This document shows positions 16,770 through 62,272 of a DNA stretch of 64,000 nucleotides, piece by piece. The stretch comes from Bimastos eiseni (taxonomy: Eukaryota > Annelida > Clitellata > Crassiclitellata > Lumbricidae). The notes below the pieces were generated by a model that was not told where the DNA came from, did no database searches, and worked only from the letters and a program-made list of their open reading frames with translations. The stretch lies in contig OY365810.1 in NCBI GenBank assembly GCA_959347315.1, forward strand, positions 4,447,467 to 4,511,466, in the 5' to 3' direction. The position numbers and the translations under genes were made by a program. The number at the start of each line of letters is the position of its first letter. Within the stretch, counting starts at the first letter, position 1.

Positions 16770-17046
16770 AATGTCCCACCCTGAAGCAATAGAGAAGAAA
16801 ACTACGACGTTCTCCTAAGATGCACGACTATTAATTACTATGTCATCGACTTTTTAAAATCCAAAGCTGTGCTGAATAGAATGCAAGAGGCTGAACTCAG
16901 GACGGAAAGAAATCCACTGAAGCAATGTATTCTCTTGTTTCAGTGGTTGAAAGACGTTACGTCTGAACAATACGAATCCTTTCTTCAGGTGATGAAGGAT
17001 ACTGAGCAGGAACATGTGGCAAATCTACTGAGAGGAAACAGTGCAG
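16770..17046 (+). CDS. Gene 2 exon: CARD1 with 2-nt insertion
   Basis: The ATG at 16771 opens MSHPEAIEKK. Compared with gene 4, two extra A residues in the run at about 16797-16801 shift the frame to an early TAA. From 16803 the other frame carries a full CARD: YDVLLRCTTINYYVIDFL, MQEAELRTERNPLKQC, QYESFLQVMKDTEQEHVANL. It leaves in phase 1 at donor gtacat (17047). Confidence 0.75.
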
Positions 17047-20000
17047 GTACATAAGTGTAGATGTATAAATATATATATATGAATATGTGTCTACGTGTAA
17101 ATGAAAGTATGATCAATATAATTTAATTCCTGTACTTTAGTGAAACCTATGTCCCCAAATATGTAATTATGTGGGATCCATATATACTAAATGGACGAGT
17201 GTAAGAGTGCGTATTGAACTGAGGATTCAAGAAGAAAAGATCTCAACGAGAAACTAGTTTGCGGAGGGTTAGGATTACGACATAATCGTTTAAATCATAA
17301 GGACATGAAAGGTAAACTTACCGTTCAAGACTTTTGCAAAGCAGTTATAATATTTTTATCTGAGTTAAGTTAGGTCTGGAAAAGTCGTGCAGTAACCTGC
17401 TTAAATGCGGTGACCATGCTCCTTTCTGAATTTATAAAAAGAGTCAGATTTGGTTGAACAACAGTATTGTTAGCAGTCCGTGTTGGAAATGACCAATAAA
17501 GAAGGCAAAAATTTCAACTATCAATGTAGGTTGAAAGACTAAACATTTTACACGTTAAATAGAGAGAGAGGCTAATTGTTATATTTGGGTCGATTATGAC
17601 TGTTTCGATTAGTATACATTATTATCGTGAAGTTACTGCACTGAAGAAAACTTGACCATAATGCTATTTCAGAAGTTTTGTATCGACAGAATCACTAAAT
17701 ATTTTGCCTATACTAATTTTTTAAATTACCAATTACATACATAGGCTAGACTACTCGCAGCGGAAACAACGCCAATATATGCTGTGACGCATACGATTAA
17801 CATTTCCAAGATTACTACATACTGTATATAACAATGTATAAATATAATATTCAGACATTAGAAATCGTAATAGTCATAATTATCCAAGATCCTTCGACCT
17901 CATGGCTCTTTAAATATCTATACTACTGTGAGTGTAAGAATTCAATAATGAATTGCTATAAAAATTGACATAATTTATTTTATTCTTTTATTTCCAGAAA
18001 TCTATTTACCATTATCAGAATTCAGATACCAGCGTTTAGACGAAATCCGACCTAAAATAGCGAATGTGATATGCCTTCACAATGAAGTAATTGCAGAGCT
18101 AAGAAGTTCACAGGCAATAAGCAGAACCGATGCAGAGGAAATAAGAGCAGAGAAAGTTGATTATGTAAAGGTCTCAAAATTGCTCAGCATTATTATGAGA
18201 CGAAGCAACCACTCATATGACAATTTTCAAAAAGTACTCAGAAAAACCCTACAAACGGCCGCGGCCGATTATCTAAGTGAAGGCAAGTATAATCACAATT
18301 GCGATTTAGGCTAATATAAACTTAATCTTAAGACTTTGCAGTTGGTGAAATTAAAACGATCAAGGAGAAGTGGTTACAGAAAAAGTAGTAGGCCCTACAC
18401 AAAACGTACATCGGAAACTCGCGGGTCCAGTATAGCTACCTTCCCAGCCAGAACATGTTTGGACCAAGCCTGATGGAGTCAATCTATCAAGTTGATGCAG
18501 ATCGTTGTGGGGAACATTAATTTTGTGATACCAAAACTAGCCTTTGCTAAGCTAAGTCTACCATGCCACCAGAACTATCACATTTCAGTTTCTTCTTCAT
18601 TAGCGTTCTATCACTCTAAAGATTTCGTCGTGAAAATGCAGAGATAATGCATAAACTTAATCTTGGTCTATGTCCAGGATGACGCGAGTAACATTTGAAC
18701 AATGCAGTCACCCTATTTACGGAGTTTGCATTTTACAGGCGAGATGCCAGCAGTACATTTAAACAACAACCGACCAGACTTGGATGGAATCTTATCTAGC
18801 ACTTTCAACCAGGCAATTCGAAACAGCTCGGAATGTGATACAGACATAAATAATCTGCTTACTGAAATGAACGGAATTGGTTTAAATCTAGTGAAAGCCA
18901 TCCCAGGACAAAGTATCGTCATCTTTATATACTGCAAAACAGCTCAAAAAGCGGTTAAATTTACGCAACTATTCAACTCTGGACGCCTTCATTATATCTT
19001 AGCAAGCATTTTGACTCGACTGTTTTTAACAATCGAACCACATAGCAAGGAAAAACTTGACTTACGAATAAATATGGAGGAGGAAGAAATCATTACTCTT
19101 GAAGAATTCACAGGGATTGAAGGTAATTTCAAGTGTGTGATGTCTGATCTGCCTTTTTGCTTCAAATTCTCTTACTGCAGCTGTTTCTTAACCTGAAGCA
19201 TAGGCTAATACAAGGAAAAACATTTCATAAAAACTTTACTCTTATATAAATTGATATTATAAATTGTGATGGCGTATGAAGCCATAGCAGAAGAGATGCA
19301 CATACGATGACGGAACAACTTGACTCGCGTATAAATATGGAAGATATAGAAGTGATTACTCTTGAAGAATTCACAGGAATTGAAGGTAAAATAAAATCTT
19401 CAGAGTATATATTAGTTTATGGCTCATTCAAAGTTCGTGTGTACAATTGTACATGTATATTCTTAGATAATTGTCTTTTGCTTTAAGCTTCTCTGATTGA
19501 TCTAAATACATGTATCTAACACATTCTGTTGTCCCTACATATTCTTAGTGTAATGGACTAAGATGCTTGCTTGGACTATCTTCTATCGGTAAATATACCT
19601 TTACCTTGATCGTTCTGCATGAGTGGCTATTAAGGGGATTGCATTTGGCTATAGCGAAGGTTTCGTTCCTTAGGTGTGACCACTGACCAGAGTGTGTTTG
19701 GCTTCTTAGTGAAACTAAGACCGTTGTGTATCTGAGACCGGTTGTCTCCCTTTTGCGTAATTAAATGCCAACACCTCTGTGAGTAAGTAAGATACTTAAA
19801 ACGACGTTCTTGGTTTCCTCTGCTGATGATGTTCGACGACTCTACATCTACATTTACATGTTCTCGTTTGACTTTCTCGATGTTGTTCAACTTTCCGTCC
19901 TGTTGACGTGGGTCGTGTTTCACCATCCTGTCGAAGTTCGGTATTGTTCTTGTGCCAATTTAATTGGTTTCTTATACTTGGTAATATGCTATTTAGACAT

Positions 20001-29000: not shown

Positions 29001-32000
29001 GAAGCCGCTAAAATAAACGTGTTGGGACCTCCACTGTAAGTGTAAGTAGGCCTGGGTTTGGAACCATTTGAGAGGGATATCCCTAATTCTAATGTTTTAC
29101 AGTCTACAAATTGAATTTGATCGTCCACGGTATCAAATGCCTTCGCAATGTCGATGAATTGAACACACCTGGATAATTCGGTATGATCAGCAGCGTCCGA
29201 TAGTTTGGCCTGAAGATAAGTTAAAGGCATCACTGCAAAGCGCTCTCCTTTTAATCCGTGTTGATTACGATTAGGAATTTTTGGTTTGTAATGAAATTAG
29301 AAAGTCTGACGTAGGCATAGTTTTATCAAAGGTTTTTGAAAAATAGGATAATATGGAGATTGGTCTATAATTTTTGAACTAGTCTTTCTGGTGTTGCTTG
29401 AAAATAAGTACAACTTTAGCAAATATAATTTATTCGGAAATTCGCCGTTGTTGAGGGAGCATTTGACATTATCAGACAGAGAAAATGTTCTAGGATCTGG
29501 CCAATTAGGGTGGGATCAAGTTCGAGCACTACACTATGAGTGATTTTAGGAAGTGAGCCAATGAAAGTAATTCGTCAGGAGACGTTGGATAAACTGCAAG
29601 TGAGTTTGTAAGGAGGCTTCATAAAGGTAACAGCAGGTAGAACATATGTAAGAATTTTTTTACATCATGAGCAATAGAAAACTGAAATAAGAATTGCATC
29701 TGTCTGAATGCATTTCCGCACAATTCGTCCGCGTGTTCTAGATCCTAATTTCTGTTGAATCAATTTGTCCTTACAATTCTCACATCAGATAAGTAAACTA
29801 CTCTCATTTATATATTTTGTCAACCGTTTACTAAGTCTAAGTAATAAATAAAAATTAAGTAAAAGCCTGTAATAATTGGATGTGAATAGATAGCTATCTA
29901 TTTATTTTTTTATTACCGAAACTTGATACCGCCCTTCTTCCAACTTTTTTTGCTCAGAAGTGCACAGACACGCCTCGACGGCGCAATTGCAGTTGTACTG
30001 CAGAGCAATTGTGCGCGAAGGACTTGCTCAAGGTCCCTACACAGTGACTGACCCCCCGGACGAGGGTCGAACCAGCTCAGCACTCACTGAACGTTATGGG
30101 CTGACCGCTCTAACCGATCGGCCACTGTGCCACACCACGTGTTGTAGAAACATGCAATAGAAAGCCTAGTGGGTTGAATAATTCACAGCCGATATTGGTA
30201 CCGACTGTGTGCATGAAACGCTTTTCGAGAAACAGCGATATTACGTAATTGTTTAGCTGACATAGCTTATTATGCGCTTTGATCGACACAATTGTCTGAT
30301 AACCATTGAACAACATCAGATAGCGAGATGCGATATTCTTTTATATGGACATCTTTCTTGCATTCGTGCACTTCTTGAAAAGAACACCATTGTCTGCTGA
30401 TATACTAGCTTACGTAAACTATCTCCTTGAAACTACATGATGGTGGAATGCAACATCTGGCGGTCATATATTATTTTGAGAATTTCTTCCGGCGATTGAT
30501 CTGTTTGAGTTTGCAAGTATATGTTGTCAAATCTCAAATTCGTGACTCCGTAGGCACCATGACATGCCGTGTCTCTTGGTGGTATACCTCACAGTCTGTA
30601 TATGTTACTAGTCCAGTTTATAGGTTAATAGTTACTAGCCATTTAATCAACCAAGATTCTGCTGTTTCAATCTTAAGATCTAGGCCTACAGTGTACATCA
30701 TCAGAATATGTATGTCTCTTGATGTAACCATAATTCTTGGGCAATGTGGTTTTTCAGAAAGCAGACAAAAATCTTACTGACGCACTACTTCTTCATTTTT
30801 TTAAAATCATTGTCAATTTTCAACAACGACTGACAACTCACAATCATCAATAGCTTTATTCAAACACTATTTACCGATTTTTTTTCATTCTAACGCTGCA
30901 CCATACTTGTTGGCTAGACATCCTTGAACTTATAGGCCTACTTAAAATCGCTGCGTCTATTTGTCTGTATAAGTGATTTGAATCGTATCACAATGTGTAT
31001 CTTCACGTCATTCCAACATCTGCGACGATCTTTTTTCGCCAAATGCCATCATCAACAGTTTTCATGCATTAGTAAGTAGTTTGTATGGAATATTTAAAAT
31101 GCAGTAAAATGACGCGAAAATTTGAATGAATGAAGCAAATCCGTAATGACTAACTATTATGACTACCTATTTTCGCTTTCAGTTGGATTTAGAATCGAAA
31201 ATAAACCTGATCCAGGTTTTGCTCAGTCGATCAGAACAAAAGCCATCGATGAGAACAATAAACGGATCCGTGGATTTACGATCTTAGGCAAGGAATTGTT
31301 TGTTGTGAGAGAATTGAGTTCATATATTGAAGTTTATGATCCGATGAAATTCAGTTTCAATCGTCGATGGCATTCGAAGGATTTAATTAACCCACAGGAC
31401 ATAGATTCCTGCAGCAGAAATAAATGTCTCTACATCAACGATTCCAAGGTGACCGGTCAGTCTAACGAAATCTTAAGCGTTCGCCCAGATGGAAAATTAA
31501 TAAAGAAATGGTTGACAGGAGAAGATTGGGGATATGGTCTGTCTGTTACGAATGAATCGACTGTCATTCTAACTGTTTGCAATAAAAATAAATTAAATGA
31601 ATATTCGCCAGATGGTCAATGGATTCGTGAAGTAAACCTGACATCAGACGCATCAATACGTTACCTATTTCACTCTATTAAAATGACCAATGGCAATTTC
31701 GTGATCAGTTACAGCGGTTACAGTGATATGGACAGAGTGTGCGTCGTGGATGCAAATGGACAAATTATAAAGTCATTCGGTGGAAAACGTATATCGACCG
31801 TCAGAGAAACTATTCGTCCAGTATATTTAGCCATTAGTAAAAGGGGAAATGTCATGGTCGCTGACCAAGAGAATGGTCGGGTTTTGTTGTTGGACTCAGA
31901 TTTGGAATATAAGAGTGAAATTCTTTCAAGCGCAAGGCACGGATTACGAGAACCAGAGTTGATACTTTATGACAAATCAAATGGTCGACTGTTTGTAGTT

Positions 32001-32051
32001 GACAATTCGAACGAAAAAGAATTTTCGGTGTTTGAGTTTAAACAATTTTAA
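16770..32051 (+). CDS. Gene 2: CARD-CARD-TRADD-N-like-linker-NHL protein (CARD1 frameshifted)
   Basis: The exon model is 16770-17046, 17998-18282, 18739-19122, 23456-23542, 24025-24129, 25486-25590, 25825-25896, 26872-27105 and 31183-32051. All internal junctions after CARD1 are phase 1. The predicted order is two CARDs, an alpha/beta module, about 200 residues of acidic and charged linker, and a 290-residue NHL propeller ending at TAA. A 2-nt insertion after codon 10 of the ATG frame breaks CARD1. Translation could start further 3' or the gene may be a pseudogene. Every later exon is intact, which argues for recent damage or an assembly error. Introns contain LINE, SINE and MITE insertions. 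A candidate poly(A) signal lies at 32442. Confidence 0.75.
17047..17997 (+). other. Gene 2 intron between CARD1 and CARD2
   Basis: AT-rich intron with nothing recognised. It ends in tttatttccag. Confidence 0.6.
17998..18282 (+). CDS. Gene 2 exon: CARD2 with GC donor
   Basis: 285 nt, phase 1-1, same length as in genes 3 and 4. It reads YLPLSEFRYQRLDEIRP, then VIAELRSSQAISRTDAEEI, KLLSIIMRRSNHSYDNFQKV and ending ADYLSEG. This has the six-helix CARD spacing with the ..D.E.I and RRS..Y..F patterns. The 3' splice donor is gcaagt rather than GT, the usual consensus for GC-AG introns. Genes 3 and 4 have GT at this site. Confidence 0.8.
18283..18738 (+). other. Gene 2 intron (GC-AG)
   Basis: Intron of 456 bases. 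Its last 160 bases are homologous to 58180-58300 in gene 4. Confidence 0.55.
18739..19122 (+). CDS. Gene 2 exon: TRADD-N-like module
   Basis: 384 nt, phase 1-1, between ttttacag and gtaatt. After a polar N-terminal part, a strand-helix-strand pattern follows: PGQSIVIFIYCKTAQKAVKF, TQLFNSGRLHYILASILTRL, then KLDLRINMEEEEIITLEEF. The pattern (beta strand, helix with a SG.L turn, later acidic strand-helix) recalls the ferredoxin-like TRADD N-terminal domain. This is inference from pattern only. The exon ends in GIEG at the donor. Confidence 0.7.
19311..19386 (+). pseudogene. Partial duplicate of the TRADD-N-like exon end
   Basis: The stretch reads EQLDSRINMEDIEVITLEEF then TGIEG followed by gtaaaa, repeating the last third of the exon at 18739-19122 only 190 bases downstream. 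The 5' part and an acceptor are missing, so it is probably nonfunctional. Confidence 0.6.
19390..20493 (+). other. Gene 2 long intron, first part
   Basis: No exon or element was recognised with confidence. Confidence 0.4.
20494..20991. mobile_element. Non-autonomous inverted-repeat element (MITE-like)
   Basis: The left end cggctggctgtagtggtggc and the right end gcgccgccactagctggctg are inverted copies, with further matching inner sequence (ttggcacgcaat versus tggtacgcaattgcg). No coding sequence lies between them. The target-site duplication was not resolved. Confidence 0.55.
20995..21645 (+). mobile_element. CR1/L2-like LINE 3' fragment
   Basis: The plus strand reads ICSRVDSGNIAFIGLSSHRI then LNGAARLIDGIPN near 21228-21350, and RKLLFRTGVFFTALP near 21497, the thumb and C-terminal motifs of CR1/L2 (SRIDY.N..F.GL, LN.AARLI). 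It ends in an attgtattgta tail near 21635, typical of L2-type 3' microsatellites. It is frameshifted. Confidence 0.75.
21646..22944 (+). other. Gene 2 intron, nothing assigned
   Basis: An 86-codon open stretch at 22201-22461 has no recognisable motif. The rest is AT-rich. Confidence 0.35.
22945..23190. mobile_element. MITE with iterated GGACAATTA ends
   Basis: The left end carries ataggacaattaccc, tcggacaattacccg and ccggacaataatccc. The right end carries the inverse set ggggttatttgcg, ggctaattgt (twice) and ggtaattgtcctg. Flanks gaatcggata and gtccgaatctta are also inverted. It is about 245 bases with no coding capacity. Confidence 0.65.
23456..23542 (+). CDS. Gene 2 linker exon A
   Basis: 87 nt, phase 1-1, after the acceptor ttattacag. 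It encodes WMQKRLISKTHSLNEGDRVA and a short acidic end. It is homologous to the orphan exons at 2547 and 4221 and resembles gene 3 exon 4 (WMPVEL). The donor dinucleotide is GC (gcagga), as in the two orphan copies. A GC donor this far from consensus lowers confidence. Confidence 0.5.
23730..23910. repeat. TATAGTATGG-like simple repeat
   Basis: Irregular repeats of atagtatagcat / gtatggcat run for about 180 bases. A shorter relative is present in both Y blocks (about 1235-1265 and 2850-2880), confirming that this intron is homologous to them. Confidence 0.7.
24025..24129 (+). CDS. Gene 2 linker exon B
   Basis: 105 nt, phase 1-1, acceptor cctgatacag and donor gtcagt. The product is Ser/Pro-rich and ends PSTPLVEESRHG. 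The orphan exon at 2982-3083 ends almost identically, so the C-terminal EESRHG is the conserved part. Confidence 0.55.
24630..25115. repeat. Dispersed repeat R, copy 1
   Basis: About 480 bases are homologous in the same orientation to 34440-34965. Shared phrases include taatggcgct, ttgggtagtcgacgat, gcatgataatac and aaagctacgcacaggaaatt. No coding frame. Probably a non-autonomous element. Ends were not resolved. Confidence 0.75.
25486..25590 (+). CDS. Gene 2 linker exon C
   Basis: 105 nt, phase 1-1, acceptor attttcag and donor gtatat. It ends SSTYADENRKRKLRDIIG, nearly the same as gene 4 (SSTYASENRKRKLRETIG). The basic ENRKRKLR stretch is the most conserved part and could be a nuclear-localisation-like or interaction motif (inference). 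Confidence 0.75.
25825..25896 (+). CDS. Gene 2 linker exon D
   Basis: 72 nt, phase 1-1, encoding YTYDLFPSAQADEVIESIYE. Gene 4 has a 72-nt equivalent at 59686-59757. Acceptor attccag, donor gtaacc. Confidence 0.75.
25897..26871 (+). other. Gene 2 intron
   Basis: No element was recognised. The end (ctgcatttcag) is homologous to the gene 4 intron end. Confidence 0.5.
26872..27105 (+). CDS. Gene 2 linker exon E, charged helical
   Basis: 234 nt, phase 1-1. It begins DLFLEEFENLRAERKVSERL and continues rich in Glu, Lys and Gln to KEKQLESID. Coiled-coil or extended helix is likely. Gene 4 has a 225-nt homologue at 60374. Gene 3 has no clear counterpart. Confidence 0.75.
27106..28600 (+). other. Gene 2 intron, first part
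   Basis: It contains possible small-repeat sequence (about 27200-27440, ggcgccctaga and ggtgcgcttttgc phrases) but no assignable element. Confidence 0.35.
28600..29640 (-). mobile_element. Antisense LINE RT fragment
   Basis: The minus strand reads CVQFIDIAKAFDTVDDQIQF near 29165-29105 (motif A), then AEDTNNYNC and WFSNNKLSLKISKTNHIIF near 28895-28755 (motif C region with A-E-D-T in place of ADDT, and the NKLSLN..KT signature of CR1/jockey-like elements). Frames are broken and it is inactive. Confidence 0.75.
29890..30145 (-). mobile_element. tRNA-derived SINE
   Basis: On the minus strand an A box (tggccgatcggttagagcgg) lies at about 30123-30104 and a B box (ggttcgaccct) at about 30073-30063, with promoter-like spacing. 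The body runs to about 29900 and ends in an A/T-rich tail. A second copy, split by a transposon, lies at 45793-47175. Confidence 0.75.
30146..31182 (+). other. Gene 2 intron before the NHL exon
   Basis: Nothing assigned. It ends in attttcgctttcag, almost identical to the intron end before the gene 4 NHL exon. Confidence 0.5.
31183..32051 (+). CDS. Gene 2 terminal exon: NHL beta-propeller
   Basis: One exon of 869 nt encodes about 289 residues and ends in TAA. Six blade-like repeats can be seen, for example IRGFTILGKELFVV, KCLYINDSKVTGQSNEILSV, YGLSVTNESTVILTV, IKMTNGNFVISYSGY, LAISKRGNVMVADQENGRVL and DKSNGRLFVVDNSN. Each has the V.D..N.R/I....DG pattern of NHL repeats, and six blades make a closed propeller. 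In the TRIM-NHL family this fold binds RNA or protein (family knowledge). No RING, B-box or transmembrane segment precedes it here. Confidence 0.88.
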
Positions 32052-41795: not shown

Positions 41796-44700
41796 ACAAC
41801 CAATTTTCTGCATGGATGATTAGGGATTGGTTGCCACACTTAATACTTCTATTTTTTCTTTCAGTCGGACATCGTTTCGTAGAATCATGGAGGACGCATA
41901 TGATTTGTCAAATATGAAGACAATTTTCCAAAGATGTGCTCATGTCAATTATTACATTATTGCTTGCCTACGAGCTGCAAAGGCATTGGACATGCTCCAA
42001 GTGAGCCAGCTTTCTGACGAAACATCTCTCATCAAACGAAATAATATAGTATTTGATTGGATCGACAAAAATCAATCATTCCGTGACATTTTTTGTCAAG
42101 TAATGGAGGAAAATGAACAAGTGCATGTATCCAATCTACTGAAAGAAATACGAAGCGGTAAGCTTTAAAGCATCGGTTGTAATTTTTTTCTTTTTTGATC
42201 CATGGTAGGTGTCCAATGCACTTTGTTTACAGAGACCAATGCCGTTGCACACTTCCTTGGTATCGAAGTTGTACATAAATGTATACAACCCCGATCCCTG
42301 TAACAAGAGTTTGCCTTGTTTGTGCATTGGGCTGCTGTCGTCTTCCATCTTTATTGCCTATGCATCTGCTCCCATTCGACCGACCCACCCCTTGTTTCCA
42401 GGCAAGGAACTGGCTCTGCTGTTGCAATTAGAAACGAGTTAGCGGTTTAACTACAGAGTTTACCTTGTCCTATCCCTCCTCTTTTGAGGTACCCATTGGG
42501 CAGTGGGGGCAAGATTTATTGTGATGACGACCTGTTCTCGTCATGCCACAACTCTGTCACTAAGTAAGTGAGCAGTTTTTCAAGGAGATGGTGTCGCCAC
42601 TCACTGTCCCACTGCACCCTGGTGGAGTTGCCTCTGTTGTTCCGCGACTGTTTATTCGTTGGGGACAAATCCCGCCTATTTCGCAGCTACCCTTCATACA
42701 GAAGGGCATGAAGCCATCCGCCACCTGTGGACGAACTGGAGATGCAGTTAAACTTTGCAGTGTTTCAACAATGCTTCAGCATTTGTTAATACCCAGACGA
42801 AAACAACTTTTTTAGATTTTCTTGTACCAACAGATTAAACAATTGAATGTTGACCTGCCACCAAAAATAGTAAGATCAACAACAGCAGGGAGCGCAAGGT
42901 TACCTTGCCATTTATTATTATTGGTTGAAAGCTTACTCATCTATCAAAAAAGATGAAAGCATTTGCGCGGTTATATACTATTTTGACTTACAGGAACCAC
43001 ATATTGGTTTAGATGTAGTTTGCCTAAGAATGTACTGTGCTAGGTATTAAGACAGAAAACCTTTCGGCAGCTCTTCATACTCTCCATAATAATATCAATT
43101 CTACTACTGTTGATCTCTGCATCCACTTTTGCCCATTCCTTGGCCGAATAAATCATACACCGACGATTACTGATTTAATTAATTTAATTTCGTCAGCATC
43201 AATTTATTTAAATTTGATACAATTGACCTCACAGGGCCTCATATTCCACTTTCGCAATTGCGATACAATCGACTGGAAAGCATCACACCAAAACTAATGC
43301 TAATAATTAGAAATGACGAAGAATTAATCGCCAAACTAAGGGCAATGGGCGCTATCAGTGAGATCGATCGTCAGGATATAACACAAGAGAAGAAGGAATA
43401 CAAAAGAAATTGGAATTTAATCGAAGCCATTCTCAGAAGAAGCGATTATGCCTTCGACTGCTTCGAGAAAGCTCTTAGGGAAACGTGGCAAGATAATGTC
43501 GCAAATTACCTTCACGAAGGTAAGTACATGTAACTTGGATATTACGTCATTTACTTCGTTGTGCATTGTAGGTCTATAGGCTTATATTGCAACTGACAAA
43601 TAAAGAATTTTAAAAATGAATGTCAGAAACATATCCATACACTTTACGGTTGGTCAAAGGCTAATTGCAAGGTTTGGAAAGTACACCATATGCTGAGTTT
43701 TCTTAGATTGTCGTATCACTATGAAAATAGTCCTGGTTTGAAATCATCATTCTGACTTTGCAAAGTGTTTCTATTAGGAAATTAAACAGATATGTAATCC
43801 TGATTACGATGTCAACCACACTGTGGAGCAAAATATATATTTTTAAATTAATTGATTGCTGTAATGGGTTGATAGGAATATAATTATTTGATATTGATTT
43901 AGCATTGCAAATAATTAACAATCAAATTTCATTGTAAGACTGATGTTTGGATTTATAAACACTGAAATTAATGTAATATGAAACAGACTTATCAGGCAAG
44001 CAAGACTGGGTCAAGCACAATACCTAATTAACCTGAAATCACGATATATATAATTATGAATTTACATGATTGCAATTGTGTTAAGATGATTACATTTAAT
44101 CTTTTTGCAGAATTATTTATTTTTCATGCATACAAAATATAATTTTAAAATTCATGATTTGATGCTTCACTGAAACTGCTCTTATTTTGAATTTCAAGCG
44201 TCATTGGATCCCGCATCATTTCGAGTAGCCGTTGTTGAATTATTGGAATTTATTTAATATATTAAGTTTAGAGAAATGTTGTATTGTTTTACAGGACAAA
44301 TGATTACTGTTCACTCAAGTACAAATCAACCTGAGAAAGATAGAATCATGTCAGAGCTAATTAATAGGACAATTTTGGAAGACACAAAGGATCCTTTGTC
44401 ATCTGAAGAGAAAATCCTTACAGCGATCAATGGATTCAACATTCACCCAGTTGCAACAAAACCAGGACAAAGCATTGTGTTCTTCTTCTACTCTAGAACA
44501 GTCAATAGCATGATCAAATTTACGGAACTGTTCATCTCTGGAGATTTACAAAATATGATTCAAGTCATCATGAATCGTCTTTTGTTGAAGATTGATCCGA
44601 AAAACAAGGAACAACTGACAGCAAGACTTAGCTTAGACGAAACAGAAATTGTTGCTGTTGAGAAATTTTCAGGAATTGAAGGTGAATACCAACTATCTCA

Positions 44701-47700
44701 ATTGTTTGCACGTGTGATAGATATACTGTAGCTCAACTGCAATTGGACTTCTCCGCTGCAGATTTCTTTCCACACAGTTCAACAATTAATGTAACTATGC
44801 AGTAAAGTTAATTCTACAAATGGGCTAAAACCATTCGTGCTGCTTTAGTTAACTTCAGCTGATGTTAATTAAGCTTTGGCCTAATCAACGATTTTTTTAA
44901 TTAGCTAATTTAGTACCACATTTTTTATTACAATTGTTCACAACTTATCATAGACTTACAAATTAAAGATTTGGATTAGGACTGAAACTCACTCTCGTTG
45001 AAAATGAAATAAATTATTACTGTCACAGATTGGATGCCCGTTGAGTTGGAAGAGGCAGCTTCCGGATTTCGCATTCACTACAGTGCGGAGACACAAACGG
45101 AACCCCATCTTCAAGATAAGGATTCATATGTCCATGGTGAGAACTAAATGTCCCAATTTTATTGTGGCCACTCAGTGCCTCCCAAAAGCATTCTTCAATT
45201 AATTTAACATTTGGAGACATTATACTATGAACCAAAACACAAATTAATTGTAGTTATTTTCTAATTTTTTCCTAACTTCAACCGAGACACCTTTACTGTT
45301 GGAGCTAAATCATTAGCATTAATTGAAAACATATTTTCTCAAGCCAAATTCACTTCATTATTAAGCCACCAAGCGCACATACAACTAATTACCTTGCTGA
45401 TTTCTGTCGACTCTACCTACAAGCCGTCATTCTATCCTGGGCTGCTTGTTTTCATCATTTTAGTCAATCCGAGGTGCCTAAATCAGATCAGGAAGTTATC
45501 AATTTAGGGACAATAGAAAAGAGATCATCCACAGATTATAATTATTTTGAATGATCATTGAATTGCATGAAAAAGTCCATCTGTAGATTCAACACTCTAT
45601 CAACAAATTCTGAAATCAAAGGGGATTAACATCACATTGTTCCGTCACATTTCATATGTGTATGATTCAGTCACAATATTAGTGTAGGTTCTGTCATCAT
45701 AATTATACCCACCACGTGGAACAATACGCAAGTTGACTTATGTTGTTTTTCACTGCAAATGACTGGTTTGAAAATGTACAGACCCATATTTATTATATTT
45801 TTTTCTTTATTACCGAAATTTCATACCGCCATTCTTTCAAAATTTTTTGCTCAAAAGGCATGCAGGGTGGCTCAATAAAAAAATATTCAGCCAGAAAAAA
45901 TGTACTATCTCAACAATCGATAAAGATATCTTTACCAAACATTTTAAGATTGACAGAGGAAAGATTTGCGAAAAATCCCTGAAAATTAAGTTGAAAACAT
46001 CTCTTTGCTTCAAATTTTACAGTTGTCTAAATTTAATTGTCCGTATTTCACAATTAAGCAGATAAAATGGACACTTGTAATTTTCAATGTCAGATAACAC
46101 CACTTTTAATTGCAAATTCAAAAAAATGTTAAACAGTATATCTCAAAGCATGTTCGAAATGTCCGCCCCATCTTTCACAAAAGCTCGAGGTTATTTTGTG
46201 AAGCTCAGTTTGGCCTTGCTGATTGAGTCCTCCGGCAGCTGGTCAAACATTAACTGTAAGAATTTTTTCAGCTCTTCCATGTTTCTTTGGCTTGAGATGA
46301 AATATGTCTTGCAGCTCCTCAGATGTGATAGTCGAGAGGGTTAAGGTCCGTTGAGTTTGATGGCCATTCACCTTTGCCAAAGAAGTCACTGCAGTTGGTG
46401 GCAATAAAGTATTGAGCTAACTTTGCCGTGGAAAATGAAATCAGATGGTAGAACAAACCTGAAGTCTTCAAAGCAGTGGGTCAACGTAAAGTTTTTCGTT
46501 TACTTCAGCCTTGTCTGGGATAAAATGCAGTCTTCCCTTAACGCCGTAATGCGCCATCAGAAACCATGACATGCTTCGCTAACTTGGCTCTCTCAACCAC
46601 CAGGCGGATGTTGTGAACATCGCGTTTTTGCTGGCTGACCAAATACGGTCTTTCTGGTGGTCAACCGGCGGGTTTAGGTAAAAGTCTTTTTCATCAGTGT
46701 GAAAGCTGGGGGCGGACAATTCGAACATGTTTTGAGATATACTGTTAAACAGATTTCTGAATTTGCAATTAAAGGTGATGTTATTTGGCATTGAAAGTTA
46801 CAAGTGTCTGTCCATCTTTTCTGCGGAATTGTGAAAATACAAAATATTAAATTTAGACAGCTGTGATATTTGAAACAATTCAACTTTTTCAATGACATTT
46901 TTCAGGGACTTTTGCAAATCTTTTCTCTTTAAATCGCAAAATGTTTGGTAAAAATATCTCTATCGGTTGTTGAGAAATTGCATTTCTTCTGGTGGGGTAT
47001 TTTTTATTGAGCCACACTGTACACACGCCTCGACGGCGCATTTGCAGAGAAATTGTGCGCTAAGGACATGCTGAAGGTCCCTACATAGTGATTCCCGGGA
47101 CGAGGGTCGAACCCGCTCACTCAGCGCGCACTAAACGCCACTGGCTGACCGCTCTAACCGATCGGCCACCGTGCATATCATACATGTACAACACAATTTT
47201 CAGACTATGACGACACGCCTTACCTCTTCCGGCCAGACCTTCCGTCGCAAAGAAAGATATTAAGCAAACAGGAAGACACGAAGTTCGAGTTCCCAGGTAA
47301 ATCTAGTATGCTTTCTACATTGCATTTCGTACATGTATACGAATTTAAATGAATATAAACTATTTCGCTGATGGTAGTAATCATTTCGGGGTTCGATCAT
47401 GGTCCCATGAGGTTGTATCCTCGTCTTGTTGAAAGTCCTTCTCTGCTTACTTCAATGCACCCTTATAAAGGTAGTTTTATTTAGGAATGTTTGCAGTGTG
47501 AAATTAGAACAAGACATTTTTGGGACACCATGCTATATGAACCAGTGTGACCTTAAACTTGCACCTAAAAATAATAATTATTACGGCTGCTATTTCTCTG
47601 TTTTGCTGTAGTCTCTCTTGCTATCTCAATTGAAACCTTTGTTTCATTTTCTTTTTCATGTTTGTTTCGAAATTAGGCAGCTAATAATGTAATCGCCTAT

Positions 47701-48723
47701 TAATTCAAACTGAAAAAACTCTTGGCACAGAGTTTTGTCGTTGTAGCACACGACAGTAGTGCGAACAATACTCTTTGCATTTCATTTAGAAAAAGTATAA
47801 TTAGGTAAAAATGAGACATTTAAATGGATTATTTCGATTCTACTTTCATATAAACTCCTCTGGCGAAAGGAAATGTCGATCAAGTCTTATTTTCGACGAT
47901 CAGAACAAAAGCTGCAGAAGAGAAGCAGAAATGGATCCATGGATTGACGATCTTAGACCAGGAATTGTTTGTTGTGAGTGCATTGAGTTCAGAAGTTGAA
48001 GTTTACGATTCCATGAAATTCAGTTTTAGTCGTCGATGGAATTTGAAGGAATTAAATAATCCGTTGGACATAGGATCATGCAACAGCAAGAAATGTCTCT
48101 ACATCATCGACTCCAAAACCAGCAGCTGGTCGACGGAAATGTTTAGAGTTGATGCAAATGGAAAGTTAATAAAGAATTGGCCAACAGGAGACAATTTTGG
48201 ATGTGGTCTTTCTGTAACAAATGAATCTAGTGTCATCATGACCGTTGTGAATAAAAATAAATTAAACGAGTATTCCCCAGATGGATATTTAATCCGTGAA
48301 ATAAATTTATCTTTCGATGCAGATACACGTAATTGTTATCCACTACATGCCATCAAACTGACCAATGGTCATTTCGTGGTCAGCCTTGGTTCCATCGTTG
48401 ATTATTCGGACAGAGTGTGCATAGTGGATACAGATGGAAAACTTCAGAATTCATTCGGTGGAGACTATGCCATTGCACAAGGGAATTATCCAGTTTATTT
48501 GTGCGTCGATGGAAATGGATTCGTGTTGGTTCTGGATCGATGGAACAGGCGAATTTTCCTGTTAGATTCAGAGCTGGGATTCAAGAGAGAAATTCTTTCG
48601 AAGGAAGAAAACGGTCTAAGATTTCCATGGAGGATTACCCTGGATGAGTCCCAAGGTCGTCGTCTGTTTGTGGCTGACAATAAATGGAACGGGGGAATGA
48701 TTTTTGTTTTTCAGTTGGAATAA
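41796..48723 (+). CDS. Gene 3: CARD-CARD-TRADD-N-like-linker-NHL protein, apparently intact
   Basis: Coding exons are 41887-42157, 43235-43519, 44295-44681, 45029-45136, 47204-47296 and 47870-48723. Their lengths (271, 285, 387, 108, 93 and 854) sum to 1998, giving 665 residues plus stop TAA with no internal stop, and every junction is phase 1. Domain order: CARD1 about 1-90, CARD2 about 95-185, TRADD-N-like about 187-313, two short linkers, NHL propeller about 383-665. No signal peptide or membrane segment is seen, so it should be cytosolic. The linker is shorter than in genes 2 and 4, with no exon E. A young retrotransposon lies just upstream, and a mariner-in-SINE insertion lies in intron 4. 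The expected role is ligand sensing coupled to CARD assembly (inference). Confidence 0.85.
41865..42157 (+). CDS. Gene 3 exon 1: start codon and CARD1
   Basis: The acceptor ttttctttcag (AG 41863-41864) is followed by a 22-nt leader and ATG at 41887, implying at least one upstream noncoding exon. The CARD reads MKTIFQRCAHVNYYIIACLR, then ETSLIKRNNIVFDWIDK and ICFCQ-like FCQVMEENEQVHVSNLL. It is more diverged from genes 2 and 4 than they are from each other. Phase-1 donor gtaagc at 42158. Confidence 0.8.
42158..43234 (+). other. Gene 3 intron 1
   Basis: No element was recognised with confidence. It ends in ttgacctcacag. Confidence 0.5.
43235..43519 (+). CDS. Gene 3 exon 2: CARD2
   Basis: 285 nt, phase 1-1, donor gtaagt. 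It reads LPL-like IPLSQLRYNRLESITP, LIAKLRAMGAISEIDRQDIT, LIEAILRRSDYAFDCFEKAL and VANYLHEG, aligning end to end with CARD2 of genes 2 and 4. Confidence 0.85.
43520..44294 (+). other. Gene 3 intron 2
   Basis: AT-rich, nothing recognised. Confidence 0.55.
44295..44681 (+). CDS. Gene 3 exon 3: TRADD-N-like module
   Basis: 387 nt, phase 1-1, acceptor gttttacag, donor gtgaat. The core reads KPGQSIVFFFYSRTVNSMIK, FTELFISGDLQNMIQVIMNR, then LTARLSLDETEIVAVEKFSG. Hydrophobic strand, SG.L-helix and acidic strand positions are kept relative to gene 2, while surface residues differ. Confidence 0.75.
44682..45028 (+). other. Gene 3 intron 3
   Basis: Short AT-rich intron, nothing else seen. Confidence 0.6.
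45029..45136 (+). CDS. Gene 3 exon 4: linker
   Basis: 108 nt, phase 1-1, acceptor actgtcacag, donor gtgaga. It encodes WMPVELEEAASGFRIHYSAE and an acidic end. The WMP start matches linker exon A of gene 2. Confidence 0.7.
45793..47175 (-). mobile_element. tRNA-derived SINE split by a mariner element
   Basis: The 3' part (45793-45860, tttattaccgaaatttcatacc and on) and the 5' part (47022-47175, with B box near 47102-47113 and A box near 47149-47167) match the uninterrupted SINE at 29890-30145. The two parts meet exactly at the ends of the inserted element. Confidence 0.75.
45861..47021 (-). mobile_element. Mariner-family element with long inverted repeats, nested in a SINE
   Basis: The ends CAGGGTGGCTCAATAAAAAA (45863) and the inverse of CAGTGTGGCTCAATAAAAAA (ending 47019) open inverted repeats of about 300 bases. 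The site is TA on the right (47020-47021) and TG on the left, a TA duplication with one mutation. The minus strand between them reads DEKDFYLNPPVDHQKDRIWS, MAHYGVKGRLHFI and WPSNSTDLNPLDYHI, the D..D34D-type mariner transposase, interrupted by stops. It is inactive. Confidence 0.8.
47204..47296 (+). CDS. Gene 3 exon 5: linker
   Basis: 93 nt, phase 1-1, acceptor acaattttcag, donor gtaaat. It encodes YDDTPYLFRPDLPSQRKILS and an acidic end. The YDxxxYLF..DLPSQ pattern loosely matches exon D (YTYDLFPSAQ) of genes 2 and 4. It starts only about 30 bases after the SINE. Confidence 0.7.
47870..48723 (+). CDS. Gene 3 terminal exon: NHL beta-propeller
   Basis: The acceptor ctggcgaaag (AG 47868-47869) keeps phase 1 and joins in frame to exon 5. 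It is a weak site, so the border could differ. Blades include LTILDQELFVVSALSSEVEV, CLYIIDSKTSSWSTEMFRVD, GLSVTNESSVIMTV, IKLTNGHFVVSLGS, VDGNGFVLVLDRWNRRIFLL and RRLFVADNKWNGG. It ends TAA at 48721-48723, with no frameshift. Confidence 0.85.
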
Positions 48724-51955: not shown

Positions 51956-51959
51956 AGAA

Positions 51960-55680: not shown

Positions 55681-55684
55681 GGGG

Positions 55685-56193: not shown

Positions 56194-56470
56194 AAAATGT
56201 CTAGCGCTGATGTAATAAAGAAGAACTACGACGTTCTTCTAAGATGTACAACTATTAATGACTATGTTATCGACTTTTTAAAAGCCGAAGATGTGCTAGA
56301 CCGAATGCAAGAGGCCAAACTCAGAATGCAAAGACATCCACTAAAGCAATGCATTCTCTTATTCCAGTGGTTGAAAGAAGTTTCGTCTGAACAATACGAA
56401 TCCTTTCTGCGGGTGATGAAGTACACGGAACAAGAACATGTGGCAAACCTATTGAAAGGAAACACTAAAG
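56194..56470 (+). CDS. Gene 4 exon: start codon and CARD1, intact
   Basis: ATG at 56197, three bases after the acceptor ccaattag. It reads MSSADVIKKNYDVLLRCTTI, NDYVIDFLKAEDVLDRMQEA, LFQWLKEVSSEQYESFLRVM and TEQEHVANLLKGN. The coding length of 274 nt gives a phase-1 donor gtacaa. It is the reference for recognising the insertion in gene 2. Confidence 0.82.
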
Positions 56471-56893: not shown

Positions 56894-57178
56894 AAGGTCA
56901 TTTGCCGTTATCGGAATTCAGACTTCAGCGCTTAGACAAAATCCGACCTAAAATAGCGAATGTGATACACATTGACAGTGAAGTGATTGCAGAGCTAAGA
57001 AGTTCAAGTGCAATAAGCAGAACCGATGCAGAGGATATTAAAGCAGAGAAAACTGAGTATGCAAAAATTTCCAAATTGCTAAGTGCAATTATGAGACGAA
57101 GCAATCACTCTTACGATTGTTTTAAAGAGGTTCTGATAAAAACCCTTCAAACGAGTACGGCGAAATATCTAAGTGATG
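56894..57178 (+). CDS. Gene 4 exon: CARD2, intact
   Basis: 285 nt, phase 1-1, acceptor aatttttcag, donor gtaggt. It reads LPLSEFRLQRLDKIRPKIAN, VIAELRSSSAISRTDAEDIK, LLSAIMRRSNHSYDCFKEVL and AKYLSDG. Very close to gene 2. Confidence 0.83.
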
Positions 57179-58317: not shown

Positions 58318-58411
58318 ACAATCGAACCACATAGCAAGGAAAAACTTGACTCACGAATAAATATGGAGGAGGAAGAAATCATTACTCTTGAAGAATTCAC
58401 AGGGATTGAAG
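58318..58411 (+). pseudogene. Gene 4 truncated TRADD-N-like exon
   Basis: Only the last 94 bases of the exon remain (KEKLDSRINMEEEEIITLEE and TGIEG before gtgatt). Upstream sequence (58190-58315) aligns with the gene 2 intron at 18530-18645, showing a deletion that removed the acceptor and most of the exon. Confidence 0.8.
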
Positions 58412-58551
58412 GTGATTTCAAGTGTGTGATGACTGATCTGCCTTTTTCTTCAACTTCTTTTACCGCAGCTGCTTCTTAACCTGAAGCATAGGCTAATACG
58501 AGGAAAAACACGTCATAAAACTATACTCTTATATAAATTGATATATAAATT

Positions 58552-58743: not shown

Positions 58744-59320
58744 AAGCCATAGTAGAAGAGATGCATATGCGATGACTTTATTTCGATCGCATACGGGGCA
58801 ACAAAGTCTCTAGTTTTGAATAAAATCGCTTGACTGCCAATATTTAAAGATACAGGCCCAACCTCAGGCTGTCTTAGAAATTGCTGAACCTTGGTAGATA
58901 TGCAGTTCTGAATTTAAGGTTTGAGACGGCACCTTTTCAAGAACTCTAACCAAGACTCACTTGATCAATAAAAAACTCAGTTCAGAAAGTTACCCACAAT
59001 CTGTAGGTTAATGACTATTTCGGTTAAAAAATAACATAACAAACTGTTCTTAGAATCAAACAATTGTCCACGTGATGTAAAACAAATAGCACTAGACATA
59101 TACTAATAGGGTAATCCATACGTTAGTTTAGGCTGATAACGTAGGTTCAATCACAAGCTGCTGACCCTCGGCGAAATTTCTGGCTAGAATGCGGTAATTA
59201 TTTTGACCAGCAGTCCATTATTTCATTAGTTAGACTTCCGTCTTAGTCACATTTTCATATAAATAAGTCGGCCATTTATCTATAATCTCATTATATGTTT
59301 GTGAATATCAAATTTTCCAG
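58744..59320 (+). other. Gene 4 intron
   Basis: No exon A or B equivalent was found here. Nothing else was recognised. Confidence 0.5.
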
Positions 59321-59425
59321 AGTGGCCACAGATCAAACCTACCGAAAGAAGACTTGTTGAACAGGAACCGCGTTCATCAACGTACGCGAGCGAAAATAGG
59401 AAAAGAAAGTTGCGCGAGACAATAG
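59321..59425 (+). CDS. Gene 4 linker exon C
   Basis: 105 nt, phase 1-1, acceptor attttccag, donor gtgggc. It ends SSTYASENRKRKLRETIG, matching gene 2 exon C in length and in the basic motif. Confidence 0.72.
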   Translation, partial: SGHRSNLPKEDLLNRNRVHQRTRAKIGKESCARQ

Positions 59426-59685
59426 GTGGGCTATACGTCTTATCGTAATCTTAGTCTCAAGAGTTCTATATCACTACTTGAAAGCTTTGAGCGCCAGTTT
59501 TTCACGTACACTGCAAAGTAATGCGATTGGACAGTCCCCCGTGAAGAGAAGCTTAGGAGCTTTTGGTCCTGTAAGCCCTATAGTGTATAACATCAATTCG
59601 GGCTCTATTTTGAAGGAATGTGTCTAATTTGTTTATGCAGCTGAAGAATAGATGTTGTTTTGTTATTTATTATTCGTATTTTCAG

Positions 59686-59757
59686 AATACACATACGACC
59701 TGCTTCCGTCAGAGCAAGCGGACGAAGTAATCGAGAATATTTATGAAAATGTTGGAG
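59686..59757 (+). CDS. Gene 4 linker exon D
   Basis: 72 nt, phase 1-1, encoding YTYDLLPSEQADEVIENIYE. Acceptor gtattttcag, donor gtaact. Only a few residues differ from gene 2. Confidence 0.73.
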
Positions 59758-60373
59758 GTAACTGTATGGAATTCTTAGAATTTATTTGAGCATACAATCA
59801 TGTATTACAGAGTCAAACCTATGCACGTATATATTGTCTATTCACAGTATTCGTTCAAGTTCCAGTCACTGTGTAATTCAGTATTTGACTATTGCTCGTA
59901 ATAGGCGAGAAATAAATGTTATGTAATATTGCATGCATCGATATGAGAGATTCTTTCAAGATAGAAATATGGTTTGTTCAGCAACGTAGGCCCTACTCGT
60001 AGGAAAAAGTTCTCAAGGTATCCAAAGAAGTTTTATTAATGGATTAAGACAGACAAAATTACTGACTCTTTTCGTTTCAGGCATATCAGTTTAACTCTCA
60101 TTGTGAATAATTCAAAATTTTGAAAAATTAATTTGACCTGTATTTGTCGAAAACTTAAAATAAAGCAAGCCTTTTATTAGTACACTACTTTGGACATATG
60201 TTAAACAAAATATGAACGATGTAACTATAAACATTTCTGTTTCTGCAACGATCGTGTTCATTTTATGCATTTGAAAGTTTAACGATCTCTAAGCGATAAT
60301 TCACAATCATAATGGTCCAAACTAATGGTTCGTCTAGAACGAAATGCAAATTATATATCGCTCTGATTTTTAG
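59758..60373 (+). other. Gene 4 intron
   Basis: Partly homologous to the gene 2 intron at 25897-26871, with deletions. No element recognised. Confidence 0.5.
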
Positions 60374-60598
60374 GAGACCTATTCTTAGAAGCATTGGAAA
60401 ACCTAAAGGTAAAGAGGAAAGTACAAGAAGGGTCAAATGAGAACGCAGAACCAAGATACATCAGTTTAAAAGAACAATTGTCTGCGAAATACGCACAAAG
60501 ACAATCTAAGCTACCGCCTAAATTGCCAAGCCATCTTGAAGTAGAGGATCAACATCGGTCTAGATGGAGCAAAGAAAGGCAACAACGATCAATTGATT
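60374..60598 (+). CDS. Gene 4 linker exon E, charged helical
   Basis: 225 nt, phase 1-1. It begins DLFLEALENLKVKRKVQEGS, followed by a stretch rich in Lys, Gln and Glu. It is nine bases shorter than the gene 2 homologue. Confidence 0.72.
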
Positions 60599-60869
60599 GT
60601 AAGTGTTAATTTACTGACAGAGAATCATAAATTCTGCGCTGTCACATTTGTGTCTTAAACGTATAAATTTATATGCCAAGAATCAAGACACAATATTACA
60701 GAATCATAATCGTAATCGCCATCTCCAAATTTCTAAAGCACCACTTGGAAGCTAAGCACAGGACACCAGCTTATTCACTAGCGCTGCGTCAAATCGAAAG
60801 GGTTGTCCAAATTATAGTCCGTGGGAGATCAGAGTTCGGTTTCCAGGTGGTCAGCAGGGAGGCAGAATA

Positions 60870-61035
60870 GCTGTTAAGGAGGGTGTCGCTTTAGTCGAGG
60901 ATTGACAGGTGGAATATCAAGTAAGGAGTCTGGGTAAGAGTTCTTGAAAAGGTGAGACTTCAATTTAGAGTGAAAAGCCCGGGGTGTGACGGATAGAGGA
61001 GCTAGGGACAGATGATAATGCATGACGGTCAGCAA
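60870..61035 (-). mobile_element. Antisense CR1/L2-like LINE C-terminal fragment
   Basis: The minus strand near 60990-60940 reads RAFHSKLKSHLFKNSYPD, the F.S.LK.HLF...Y ending of CR1/L2 proteins. Only the end of the element is preserved. Confidence 0.55.
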
Positions 61036-61315
61036 TGATGGAAGAACCTAGAAAGCACGAAATTCAGGAGGCAGGTCGATCTTTCAAAATTTCTACATTA
61101 ATGTCCTTGGATTGTATTACAATGTGTAGATCAATCTTCGCGTCGTTCCTGCACCTGCGGCTGCCTGTATTTCTCCAAATACCATCATCAACATTTTATA
61201 AATAGGCGTATTACTTCGTATGCTGAATAGTATATTTAAATTTAACAGTATAAAATTCAGATGAATTAAGATTATTGTTGGTATATATTTTAATATTCTA
61301 TGTTTTTGCTTTCAG

Positions 61316-62272
61316 TTGAACACAGAATCAAAAACAAATTTAATCCAGTTTTTGTTCAGTCGATCAGAATAAAAACCGTTGGTGAGAGTGAGAAATTGAT
61401 CCGAGGGTTTACGATCTTAGGCAAAGAATTGTTTGTTATAAGTGGAGATAGTTCAGAAGTTGAAGTATGCGGTTCGGTTAAATTCAGGTTCAATCGTCGA
61501 TGGAAATTGAAGGAGTTAATTGAACCACAGGACATAGCATCCTGCGACAGAAATAAATGTCTCTACATCTTCGATACCAAAGTCACCAGTCATTCGAAGG
61601 AAATCTTTAGAGTTCATCCAAGTGGAAAGTTAATAAAGAAATGGTTAACAGGAGAAGAATGGGGATACGGTCTGACTGTTACAAATGAATTTACTGTCCT
61701 TCAAGCGGTTTGTAATAAAAATAAATTAAATGAATATTCGCCAGATGGAGAGCGAATCCGTGAAGTATACCATCCAACGCACCAATATGTTACCTATTTC
61801 ATGCCATTAAGCTGAACAATGGCAATTTTTTTTTCAGCTATTGCGGTTATGGTGATCTGAACGGAGTGTGCGTGGTGGATGCAAAAGGACATATTTTGAA
61901 GTCATACGGTGGAAAACCTGGATCGATCTTCAGACAAATTGTTCGTCCAAACAATTTGGTCATTGATGGAAAGGAATTTGTCATAGTCGCTGATCAAGGT
62001 AATGGTCAGGTTTTGTTGATTCAATTCTTTCAAAAGACAAGCACGGATTACGGGAACTTGAGTTGATAGTTCTTGACGAATCCAATGGTCGATTGTTCTT
62101 GGCTGACAATTGGAATGAAGGAGAAATTTCTGTGTTTAAATTTAAACAATTAAGTTGCAATAATAAAATTTATTTTGTATGTTTCTATGTGACAGCAATT
62201 CGATTTCATGGGAAGGAAAGCATAAGAATTGCACAATTGATTTATTTAATTTATCGACCTCGTGGATTTTGA
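61316..62272 (+). pseudogene. Gene 4 NHL exon with two frameshifting deletions
   Basis: The acceptor gctttcag and first blades are intact (LIRGFTILGKELFVISGDSS, CLYIFDTKVTSHSKEIFRVH, YGLTVTNEFTVLQAV). Relative to gene 2, a net 4-base loss at about 61771-61820 stops the first frame at 61813. The next frame carries GVCVVDAKGHILKSYGG and IVADQGNGQVLL, then a 25-base loss at about 62016 shifts it again to LIVLDESNGRLFLADNWNEG. The normal stop after FKFKQ is also gone. Three blades lie before the first break. Confidence 0.8.

Follow-up and report, generated by a model that had tools for sequence, protein, structure and literature searches.

Organisation of the gene copies

The window (the whole 64,000-nucleotide stretch of Bimastos eiseni DNA that was analysed) carries on its + strand three collinear sets of CARD-CARD-alpha/beta-NHL exons, located by tblastn and here called g1, gene 3 and g5, together with orphan CARD exons (Table 1). 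Gene 3 (41887-48723, + strand) is the only copy in the window that looks intact: in our splice model six exons, in the order two CARD exons, one alpha/beta exon, two linker exons and one NHL exon, join into a single 665-residue frame with one stop, and all five introns are GT-AG and in phase 1. In g1, whose intactness was judged from start-codon register, the ATG at 16771 does not share the reading frame of CARD1. An earlier note on this DNA had described three collinear gene copies plus orphan exons; the sets and the orphans are there, while of the three sets gene 3 alone looks intact.

Table 1. Exons and open frames of the family in the window, with the evidence for each.
Feature	Position	Strand	Evidence
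Orphan CARD exon (open frame)	6450..6827	+	Pfam CARD E 3.2e-8
Orphan CARD exon (open frame)	7472..7804	+	Pfam CARD E 2.4e-8
g1 exon set	16785-32051	+	tblastn
g1 CARD1 open frame	16785..17054	+	Pfam CARD E 4.3e-4, under cut-off
g1 CARD2 exon, GC-type donor	17998..18282	+	Pfam CARD 23.5 bits, under cut-off 23.9
g1 alpha/beta exon	18739..19122	+	tblastn
Second, partial alpha/beta piece	19313..19459	+	tblastn
g1 NHL open frame	31134..32051	+	Pfam NHL, tblastn
Gene 3 exon 1, CARD1, aa 1-90, start ATG	41887..42157	+	splice model
Gene 3 exon 2, CARD2, aa 91-185	43235..43519	+	Pfam CARD PF00619 E 1.1e-7, above cut-off
Gene 3 exon 3, alpha/beta module, aa 186-314, putatively TRADD-N-like	44295..44681	+	
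Gene 3 exon 4, linker, aa 315-350	45029..45136	+	g4514 and g4441 carry a similar exon at this position
Gene 3 exon 5, linker, aa 351-381, inclusion uncertain	47204..47296	+	splice sites and open frame
Gene 3 exon 6, NHL propeller, aa 382-665, and stop	47870..48723	+	Pfam NHL, AlphaFold, Foldseek
g5 exon set	56197-62149	+	tblastn
g5 CARD1 exon	56197..56470	+	tblastn
g5 CARD2 exon	56894..57178	+	tblastn
g5 alpha/beta remnant, C-terminal third only	58318..58446	+	tblastn
g5 NHL exon, broken across three frames	61294..62149	+	tblastn

The exact 665-residue frame, which the earlier note took to make chance joining unlikely, does exist, but the argument weighs less than it seems: the internal exons are all of phase 1-1, so that any combination of them stays in frame. 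Stronger evidence for a joined gene comes from purifying selection (see below) and from g4514, a copy just outside the window, which joins at introns equivalent to those of gene 3 into 634 residues, with 45% identity to the gene 3 product over 658 columns and with exons 2 and 3 of equal length in the two genes (285 and 387). The inclusion of exon 5 of gene 3 is uncertain because, within the 195 kb examined, this exon was found in no copy other than gene 3 itself and a near-duplicate of it; g4514 has no convincing counterpart, and the gene 3 product without it would be 634 residues long.

CARD and NHL domains

The CARD identity of the N-terminal exons is supported by sequence profiles, a check that the earlier note had proposed for CARD and NHL alike. 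CARD2 of gene 3 scores 32.2 bits against the PF00619 cut-off of 23.9, six of eight further CARD exons profiled are above the cut-off, and the full products (665 and 634 residues) score 32.3 and 32.1 bits, with two matching stretches in the 634-residue product. CARD1 of gene 3 alone has no Pfam CARD match at E<=5; it matches CARD1 of g1 (tblastn E 1.3e-11), which alone reaches 20.7 bits and so also lies under the cut-off. Structure prediction covered the NHL and alpha/beta exons, and the death folds therefore rest on the Pfam profiles. Neither the gene 3 product nor that of g4514 has a Pfam match to RING, B-box or filamin domains at E<=0.1, in agreement with the earlier proposal that death-fold domains stand where NHL proteins otherwise carry RING/B-box parts.

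The NHL exon is predicted to fold as a propeller like those of TRIM2, Thin and Brat. Pfam NHL scores 23 bits on the exon frame of gene 3 (one repeat above the cut-off of 20) and 23.8 bits on that of g1, against 18.6 and 14.8 bits, under the cut-off, on the full 665- and 634-residue products. The AlphaFold model of the gene 3 exon (pLDDT 81.3, pTM 0.84) has 24 strands, the number expected of six blades with four strands each, the blades not being assigned singly, and is of the six-bladed type that the note had foreseen; its Foldseek match to the TRIM2 NHL domain (7b2r) has E 1.2e-13 and TM 0.78, and a PDB sequence match to Thin has E 5.7e-10.

The nearest solved folds by Foldseek, the propellers of TRIM2, Thin, TRIM71, Brat and Mei-P26, include structures determined with RNA and raise the alternative that the propeller, like that of Brat or TRIM71, has a regulatory and not an immune function in which it binds RNA or a protein, the CARDs serving for self-assembly only. 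We consider this unlikely, since an RNA-binding NHL domain is expected to have a basic surface and the NHL part of gene 3 has a net charge of -4 calculated from its sequence, and since conserved developmental regulators are not typically amplified in tandem with many broken copies, as this family is.

The alpha/beta module

Between the CARDs and the linker lies a module of two types, A and B; hhalign matches type A to type B, together with copies related to it, at a probability of 99 (E 3.1e-18). The earlier note had called it TRADD-N-like, a name that it bears by weak criteria and not by PF20694. As a TRADD-N domain it gave no significant match in Pfam, NCBIfam, PDB profiles or Foldseek: Pfam TRADD-like_N (PF20694) appears in one of 21 copies (E 0.15, 12.3 bits against a cut-off of 23.7), the commonest Pfam match is instead B2-adapt-app_C (six of 21 copies, best E 2.8e-4, under the cut-off), the model of the exon has no Foldseek match at E<=1e-3, and a genome scan with PF20694 found one place, on chromosome C1 and at none of these loci.

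These results speak for the reading that the module is some other alpha/beta domain and the family CARD-CARD-unknown-NHL, a reading whose odds we put not far short of even. Set against it are a death-fold neighbour, as in DEDD2, and one serine invariant in all 21 aligned copies, comparable to the conserved serine that Kaur et al. (2021, eLife 10:e70394, PMC8195603) describe for the beta2-beta3 turn of TRADD-N, where it comes after a tiny residue. In our copies the residue ahead of the serine is mostly Q, not tiny, with a G two places before. A TRADD-N domain would have an RRM-like fold of two alpha+beta layers; the low-confidence model of our module (pLDDT 48.7) sets the serine at the start of a strand.

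Selection and possible exchange between copies

The paralogues are under purifying selection, strongest on the CARDs and weakest on the propeller: among pairs with computable dS, dN/dS is 0.08-0.24 for CARD1, 0.09-0.29 for CARD2, 0.13-0.55 for the alpha/beta module and 0.38-0.59 for NHL. No 24-codon window of the propeller gave a clear case of positive selection (ratios 0.13-1.27), the highest ratio (1.27) lying at its N-terminal edge. Within the same genes, the two ends differ in divergence: synonymous differences are 0.83 in the CARDs against 0.49 in NHL between gene 3 and g1 (Fisher p 4e-9), and 0.82 against 0.43 between gene 3 and g4514 (Fisher p 5e-11), which suggests exon exchange.

Copies and coupling across the genome

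The pairing of CARD with the alpha/beta module is genome-wide. A same-strand CARD lies within 4 kb upstream of 77 of 90 type B alpha/beta exons (500 shifted controls: mean 2.7, max 8; full lists of 146 CARD and 90 alpha/beta matches used) and of 16 of 17 of type A (500 shifts: mean 1.1, max 5; 18 of 25 CARD and 17 of 24 alpha/beta matches entered, the seven omitted alpha/beta matches, on C9, C4, C14 and C17, recurring in the type B list). Many paralogues thus pair a Death-like domain with this alpha/beta module, by whatever name the module goes.

The NHL exon of gene 3 has at least 135 matches in the genome, itself included, at least 129 of them on one chromosome (C5); this is a lower bound, from 135 of 689 candidates scored, all 135 of which were used. 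Another copy-number search (150 of 410 candidates scored) likewise gave lower bounds, and the counts show amplification within the genome. Part of the copy number may reflect assembly redundancy, the assembly having set two haplotypes one after the other. Between C5 4396.7-4448.2 kb and window 33.3-74.1 kb there are matching pieces with 94-98% identity, and alleles in heterozygous marine animals can differ by as much. We find this possible but doubtful, as a type B stretch breaks up the first block and is missing from the second, and divergence is far greater in g1, g4531 and the type B genes.

The link from CARD to NHL is looser. For the 67 CARDs counted on C5 and C14 (of 25 + 146 CARD matches, 24 + 53 were entered), 27 have a same-strand NHL exon within 16 kb downstream (2000 shifts: mean 11.9, max 21) and two an opposite-strand one within that distance; for 17 of the CARDs there is a same-strand NHL up to 16 kb upstream as well, so that cluster density accounts for part of the pairing. 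Among the matches listed, a CARD was detected in the 16 kb upstream of only 27 of the 135 NHL exons, and most propellers may therefore have other or more diverged partners.

Could the NHL exon then belong to a gene of its own, next to a CARD-alpha/beta gene, and the joined model be an artefact of dense clusters? The excess of NHL matches on C5 over CARD matches entered there (59) would fit, as would the weak pyrimidine tract at the NHL acceptor of gene 3, whose joined transcript is predicted, and two CARD-CARD-alpha/beta sets, g4441 and g4531, for which the search met no NHL on the way to the following set or to the limit of the 195 kb examined. We nevertheless hold this to be quite improbable: the NHL exons of g4514 and g1 are preceded by pyrimidine-rich acceptors, the phase-1 junctions are common to gene 3 and g4514, which are deeply diverged, and six of the eight sets within the 195 kb keep the same order through to an NHL exon. 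Against a family of joined genes, six of the eight sets are broken or without NHL ahead of the next set.

Interpretation

The best explanation, to which we give a probability of about 0.55, is a tandem, expanded family of predicted intracellular CARD-CARD-alpha/beta-acidic linker-NHL proteins, possibly specific to its lineage, that most likely serve as innate sensors. It builds on the observed exon order, common splice phases, CARD and NHL identity, purifying selection and genome-wide CARD-alpha/beta coupling. From these we infer a joined transcript and an immune role, in which the C-terminal propeller, least constrained and with its own divergence history, would bind a ligand; binding would free or cluster the constrained paired CARDs at the N-terminus, and these would then serve, on a caspase or NF-kB-type adaptor, as the nucleus of a CARD-CARD assembly, with the alpha/beta module as a conserved docking or switch part.

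More tentatively, and with the odds against it, some 90 CARD-alpha/beta signalling platforms and more than 100 NHL propellers might form a very large two-part innate repertoire, propeller exons being swapped between distant platforms by way of the symmetric phase-1 introns. The germ line would in this way form new combinations of recognition part and signalling part. The differing histories of CARDs and propeller within genes make such germ-line exchange of recognition modules directly testable.

Comparison with known systems

A search with the 665-residue product gave nothing at E<=0.001 among 7999 candidates scored, in a protein database that is possibly poor in animals. A literature search likewise found the CARD-CARD-alpha/beta-NHL architecture in no title or abstract, consistent with the earlier statement that no characterised pathway was known to have it.

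With the TRIM-NHL and B-box-NHL proteins (TRIM2, TRIM3, TRIM32/Thin, TRIM71, Brat) the family has the C-terminal propeller in common, and differs in lacking RING, B-box and filamin matches; the same genome has NHL genes with a B-box (L002) or filamin (L008) above cut-off, and two more (L007 and L003) with weaker B-box/filamin matches. In RIG-I/MDA5 and NOD2, too, a pair of CARDs at the N-terminus precedes a recognition part at the C-terminus, which in this family would be the propeller; unlike them, the gene 3 and g4514 products have no helicase, NACHT or LRR match. APAF1 also combines CARD with a C-terminal beta-propeller, but has a single CARD, an NB-ARC ATPase and WD40 propellers, and neither NB-ARC nor WD40 is matched in the two products.

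A close likeness is to the TRADD-N expansions of marine invertebrates, in which, as Kaur et al. (PMC8195603) describe, Death-like and TRADD-N constant regions are joined to variable C-termini, sometimes a propeller (DED-TRADD-N-WD40 in Branchiostoma, WD40 in Crassostrea); these lineage-specific expansions occur in echinoderms too, with retrotransposons nearby. The gene 3 family shares with them a constant part of Death-like superfamily and alpha/beta domains, and differs in its two CARDs where they usually have a DED, in NHL in place of WD40, and in an alpha/beta module that misses the TRADD-N profile. NHL is not mentioned in the main text of that paper, nor do its passages on CARD couple it to TRADD-N; a figure legend in a sponge paper (PMC8242945) lists both CARD and NHL. 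The family is best read as a new architecture inside a known class of expanded death-fold proteins and, if transcripts confirm it, a death-fold platform with an NHL propeller would be a further animal innate sensor design, beside RIG-I, NOD and TRIM.

Gene 3 and its domains

In this genome (660 Mb, 118 contigs), the splice model of gene 3, the most complete CARD-CARD-α/β-NHL exon set in the window, joins six exons across five introns, all GT-AG and phase 1, into 665 residues with one stop. The earlier note took this exact frame as making chance joining unlikely; the frame does assemble, but its closure alone is weak evidence because the internal exons are symmetric. The pyrimidine tract at the last-exon acceptor is weak, and within 195 kb of contiguous sequence exon 5 has a counterpart only in the near-duplicate of gene 3. 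A repeat-like piece lies just 5′ of exon 5 (window 47011–47200), with similar pieces near 29.9 and 74.4 kb; exon 5 may have originated at a repeat's edge.

Coordinates of gene 3, its product and g4514 (exons, window nucleotides; product parts, residues; C5, contig of the window, which spans C5 4447467–4511466)
Feature	Location	Strand	Remark
Exon 1	41887–42157	+	splice model
Exon 2	43235–43519	+	splice model
Exon 3	44295–44681	+	splice model
Exon 4	45029–45136	+	splice model
Exon 5	47204–47296	+	splice model
Exon 6	47870–48723	+	splice model
CARD1	1–90
CARD2	91–185
α/β module	186–314
Acidic linker	315–381		D/E = 15, K/R = 7
NHL part	382–665
g4514	C5 4514153–4524713	+	just downstream of window

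The presence of CARDs is borne out by both full products (gene 3, 665 residues, and g4514, 634 residues), which score 32.3 and 32.1 bits against the Pfam CARD cut-off of 23.9. Taken singly, CARD2 of gene 3 matches at E 1.1e-7, CARD1 and CARD2 of g1, another set in the window, match below the cut-off (E 4.3e-4 and 5.8e-5), and CARD1 of gene 3 alone gives no Pfam CARD match. Pfam NHL exceeds its cut-off on the exon ORFs of gene 3 and g1, not on the full products. The predicted NHL propeller held up to structure prediction: the exon model (pLDDT 81.3, 24 strands) matches TRIM2, Thin, TRIM71, Brat and Mei-P26 in Foldseek, and its PDB sequence matches are Thin, TRIM3, TRIM2 and TRIM71. As had also been claimed, no RING or B-box (E ≤ 0.1) accompanies it in the gene 3 or g4514 product; a B-box-NHL and a filamin-NHL gene exist in the same genome, above cut-off.

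Sister sets in the cluster

The order CARD1-CARD2-α/β occurs eight times in the 195 kb, always on the + strand. In six of the eight an NHL exon comes next, ahead of any further set; in g1, one of these six, it lies about 12 kb away. Six sets are broken or lack NHL; open joining is found in gene 3 and g4514. Joined without exon 5, g4514 shares 45% identity with gene 3 in an alignment of 658 columns (E 7e-179); exons 2 and 3 are equal in length in the two genes, and all four introns of g4514 are phase 1. Three of the eight sets are near-copies of three others and, lying in blocks of 94–98% identity, are not independent of them; the blocks, which pair window 33300–74100 (partly outside) with C5 4396700–4448200, are either a recent duplication or a misplaced haplotype.

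Directly upstream of gene 3 lies a reverse-transcriptase element (window 39028–41667; 879-residue open frame, RVT_1 E 1.8e-16), most of which is also present in the similar upstream C5 block, and frames resembling broken reverse-transcriptase pieces lie between gene 3 and g5, another set in the window (window 54420–55538). At C5 4383823–4391200 there is a CARD-CARD-NHL copy of type B, the second of two diverged exon classes in the genome; no α/β exon was found there.

Copies and pairing across the genome

The NHL exon has at least 135 genome matches, itself included, among 689 candidates, at least 129 of them on C5. Type A matches number 24 (α/β) and 25 (CARD2); type B matches, spread across C5, C7, C9, C13, C14 and other chromosomes, number at least 146 (CARD) and 90 (α/β). 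A same-strand CARD lies within 4 kb upstream of 77 of the 90 type B and 16 of 17 type A α/β exons (the other seven type A matches recur in the type B list); downstream the counts are 4 and 0, on the opposite strand 0 and 0, and in 500 shifted controls the means were 2.7 and 1.1, the maxima 8 and 5. CARD-to-NHL pairing is weaker: on C5 and C14, 27 of 67 CARDs are followed within 16 kb by an NHL on the same strand, against 17 preceded by one and 2 with one on the other strand (2000 shifted controls: mean 11.9, maximum 21), and a CARD was detected upstream of only 27 of the 135 listed NHL exons. On C7 (8046–8057 kb, loci L051–L052), a row of CARD-like exons accompanies one α/β exon, with no NHL found in the 20 kb covered there.

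The α/β module

The type A module is homologous to that of type B: hhalign matches their alignments with probability 99 and E 3.1e-18, the second of the two including copies from C9, C4, C14 and C17 as well. What stands of the proposal that the module is TRADD-N-like is an α/β exon with one serine invariant across 21 aligned copies; for TRADD-N, Kaur et al. (2021; PMC8195603) describe a conserved serine, preceded by a tiny residue, in the β2–β3 turn. Support from profiles and structures did not follow: Pfam TRADD-like_N matched 1 of the 21 copies, weakly, a PDB profile search with the module gave no TRADD match, and the low-confidence model (pLDDT 48.7), in which the serine sits at a strand start, gave no Foldseek match at E ≤ 1e-3. 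In the genome, TRADD-like_N (PF20694) was found, above cut-off, only at C1:43534815–43534964, within a 980-residue open frame and away from these loci. The module may be called TRADD-N-like, its membership in TRADD-N being unproven.

Selection and exon history

Among paralogue pairs with computable dS, which leaves out the gene 3 CARD pairs, all saturated, dN/dS is 0.08–0.24 for CARD1, 0.09–0.29 for CARD2, 0.13–0.55 for α/β and 0.38–0.59 for NHL. Gene 3 and g1 differ at a fraction 0.83 of synonymous sites over the two CARDs versus 0.49 in NHL (Fisher p 4e-9), and gene 3 and g4514 at 0.82 versus 0.43 (p 5e-11); between g1 and g4514 the relation is reversed (0.32 versus 0.45, p 0.025). The propeller exons are thus roughly equidistant among the three genes, and the CARDs form two groups. 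Exon exchange or gene conversion is the simplest reading, on a comparison of no more than three genes; synonymous rates differing between exons are a possible alternative.

Comparison with known systems

This is a real, evolving gene family, whose architecture suggests a sensor function. Among the titles and abstracts that full-text literature searches listed, none dealt with a CARD/TRADD-N/NHL protein; NHL is nowhere mentioned in the main text of Kaur et al. (2021; PMC8195603), and passages in it on CARD do not couple CARD with TRADD-N. The claim that no known pathway has this architecture needs narrowing: the CARD-CARD-α/β-NHL order was not found in print by these searches, but it belongs inside a class already described, that of death-fold proteins that have undergone expansion. 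The sections of Kaur et al. on that class describe constant Death-like and TRADD-N regions with variable C-termini, WD40 propellers included, in marine invertebrates. Whereas those proteins join Death-like and TRADD-N regions, in some cases to a WD40 propeller, the predicted proteins of the family here join CARDs to an NHL propeller.
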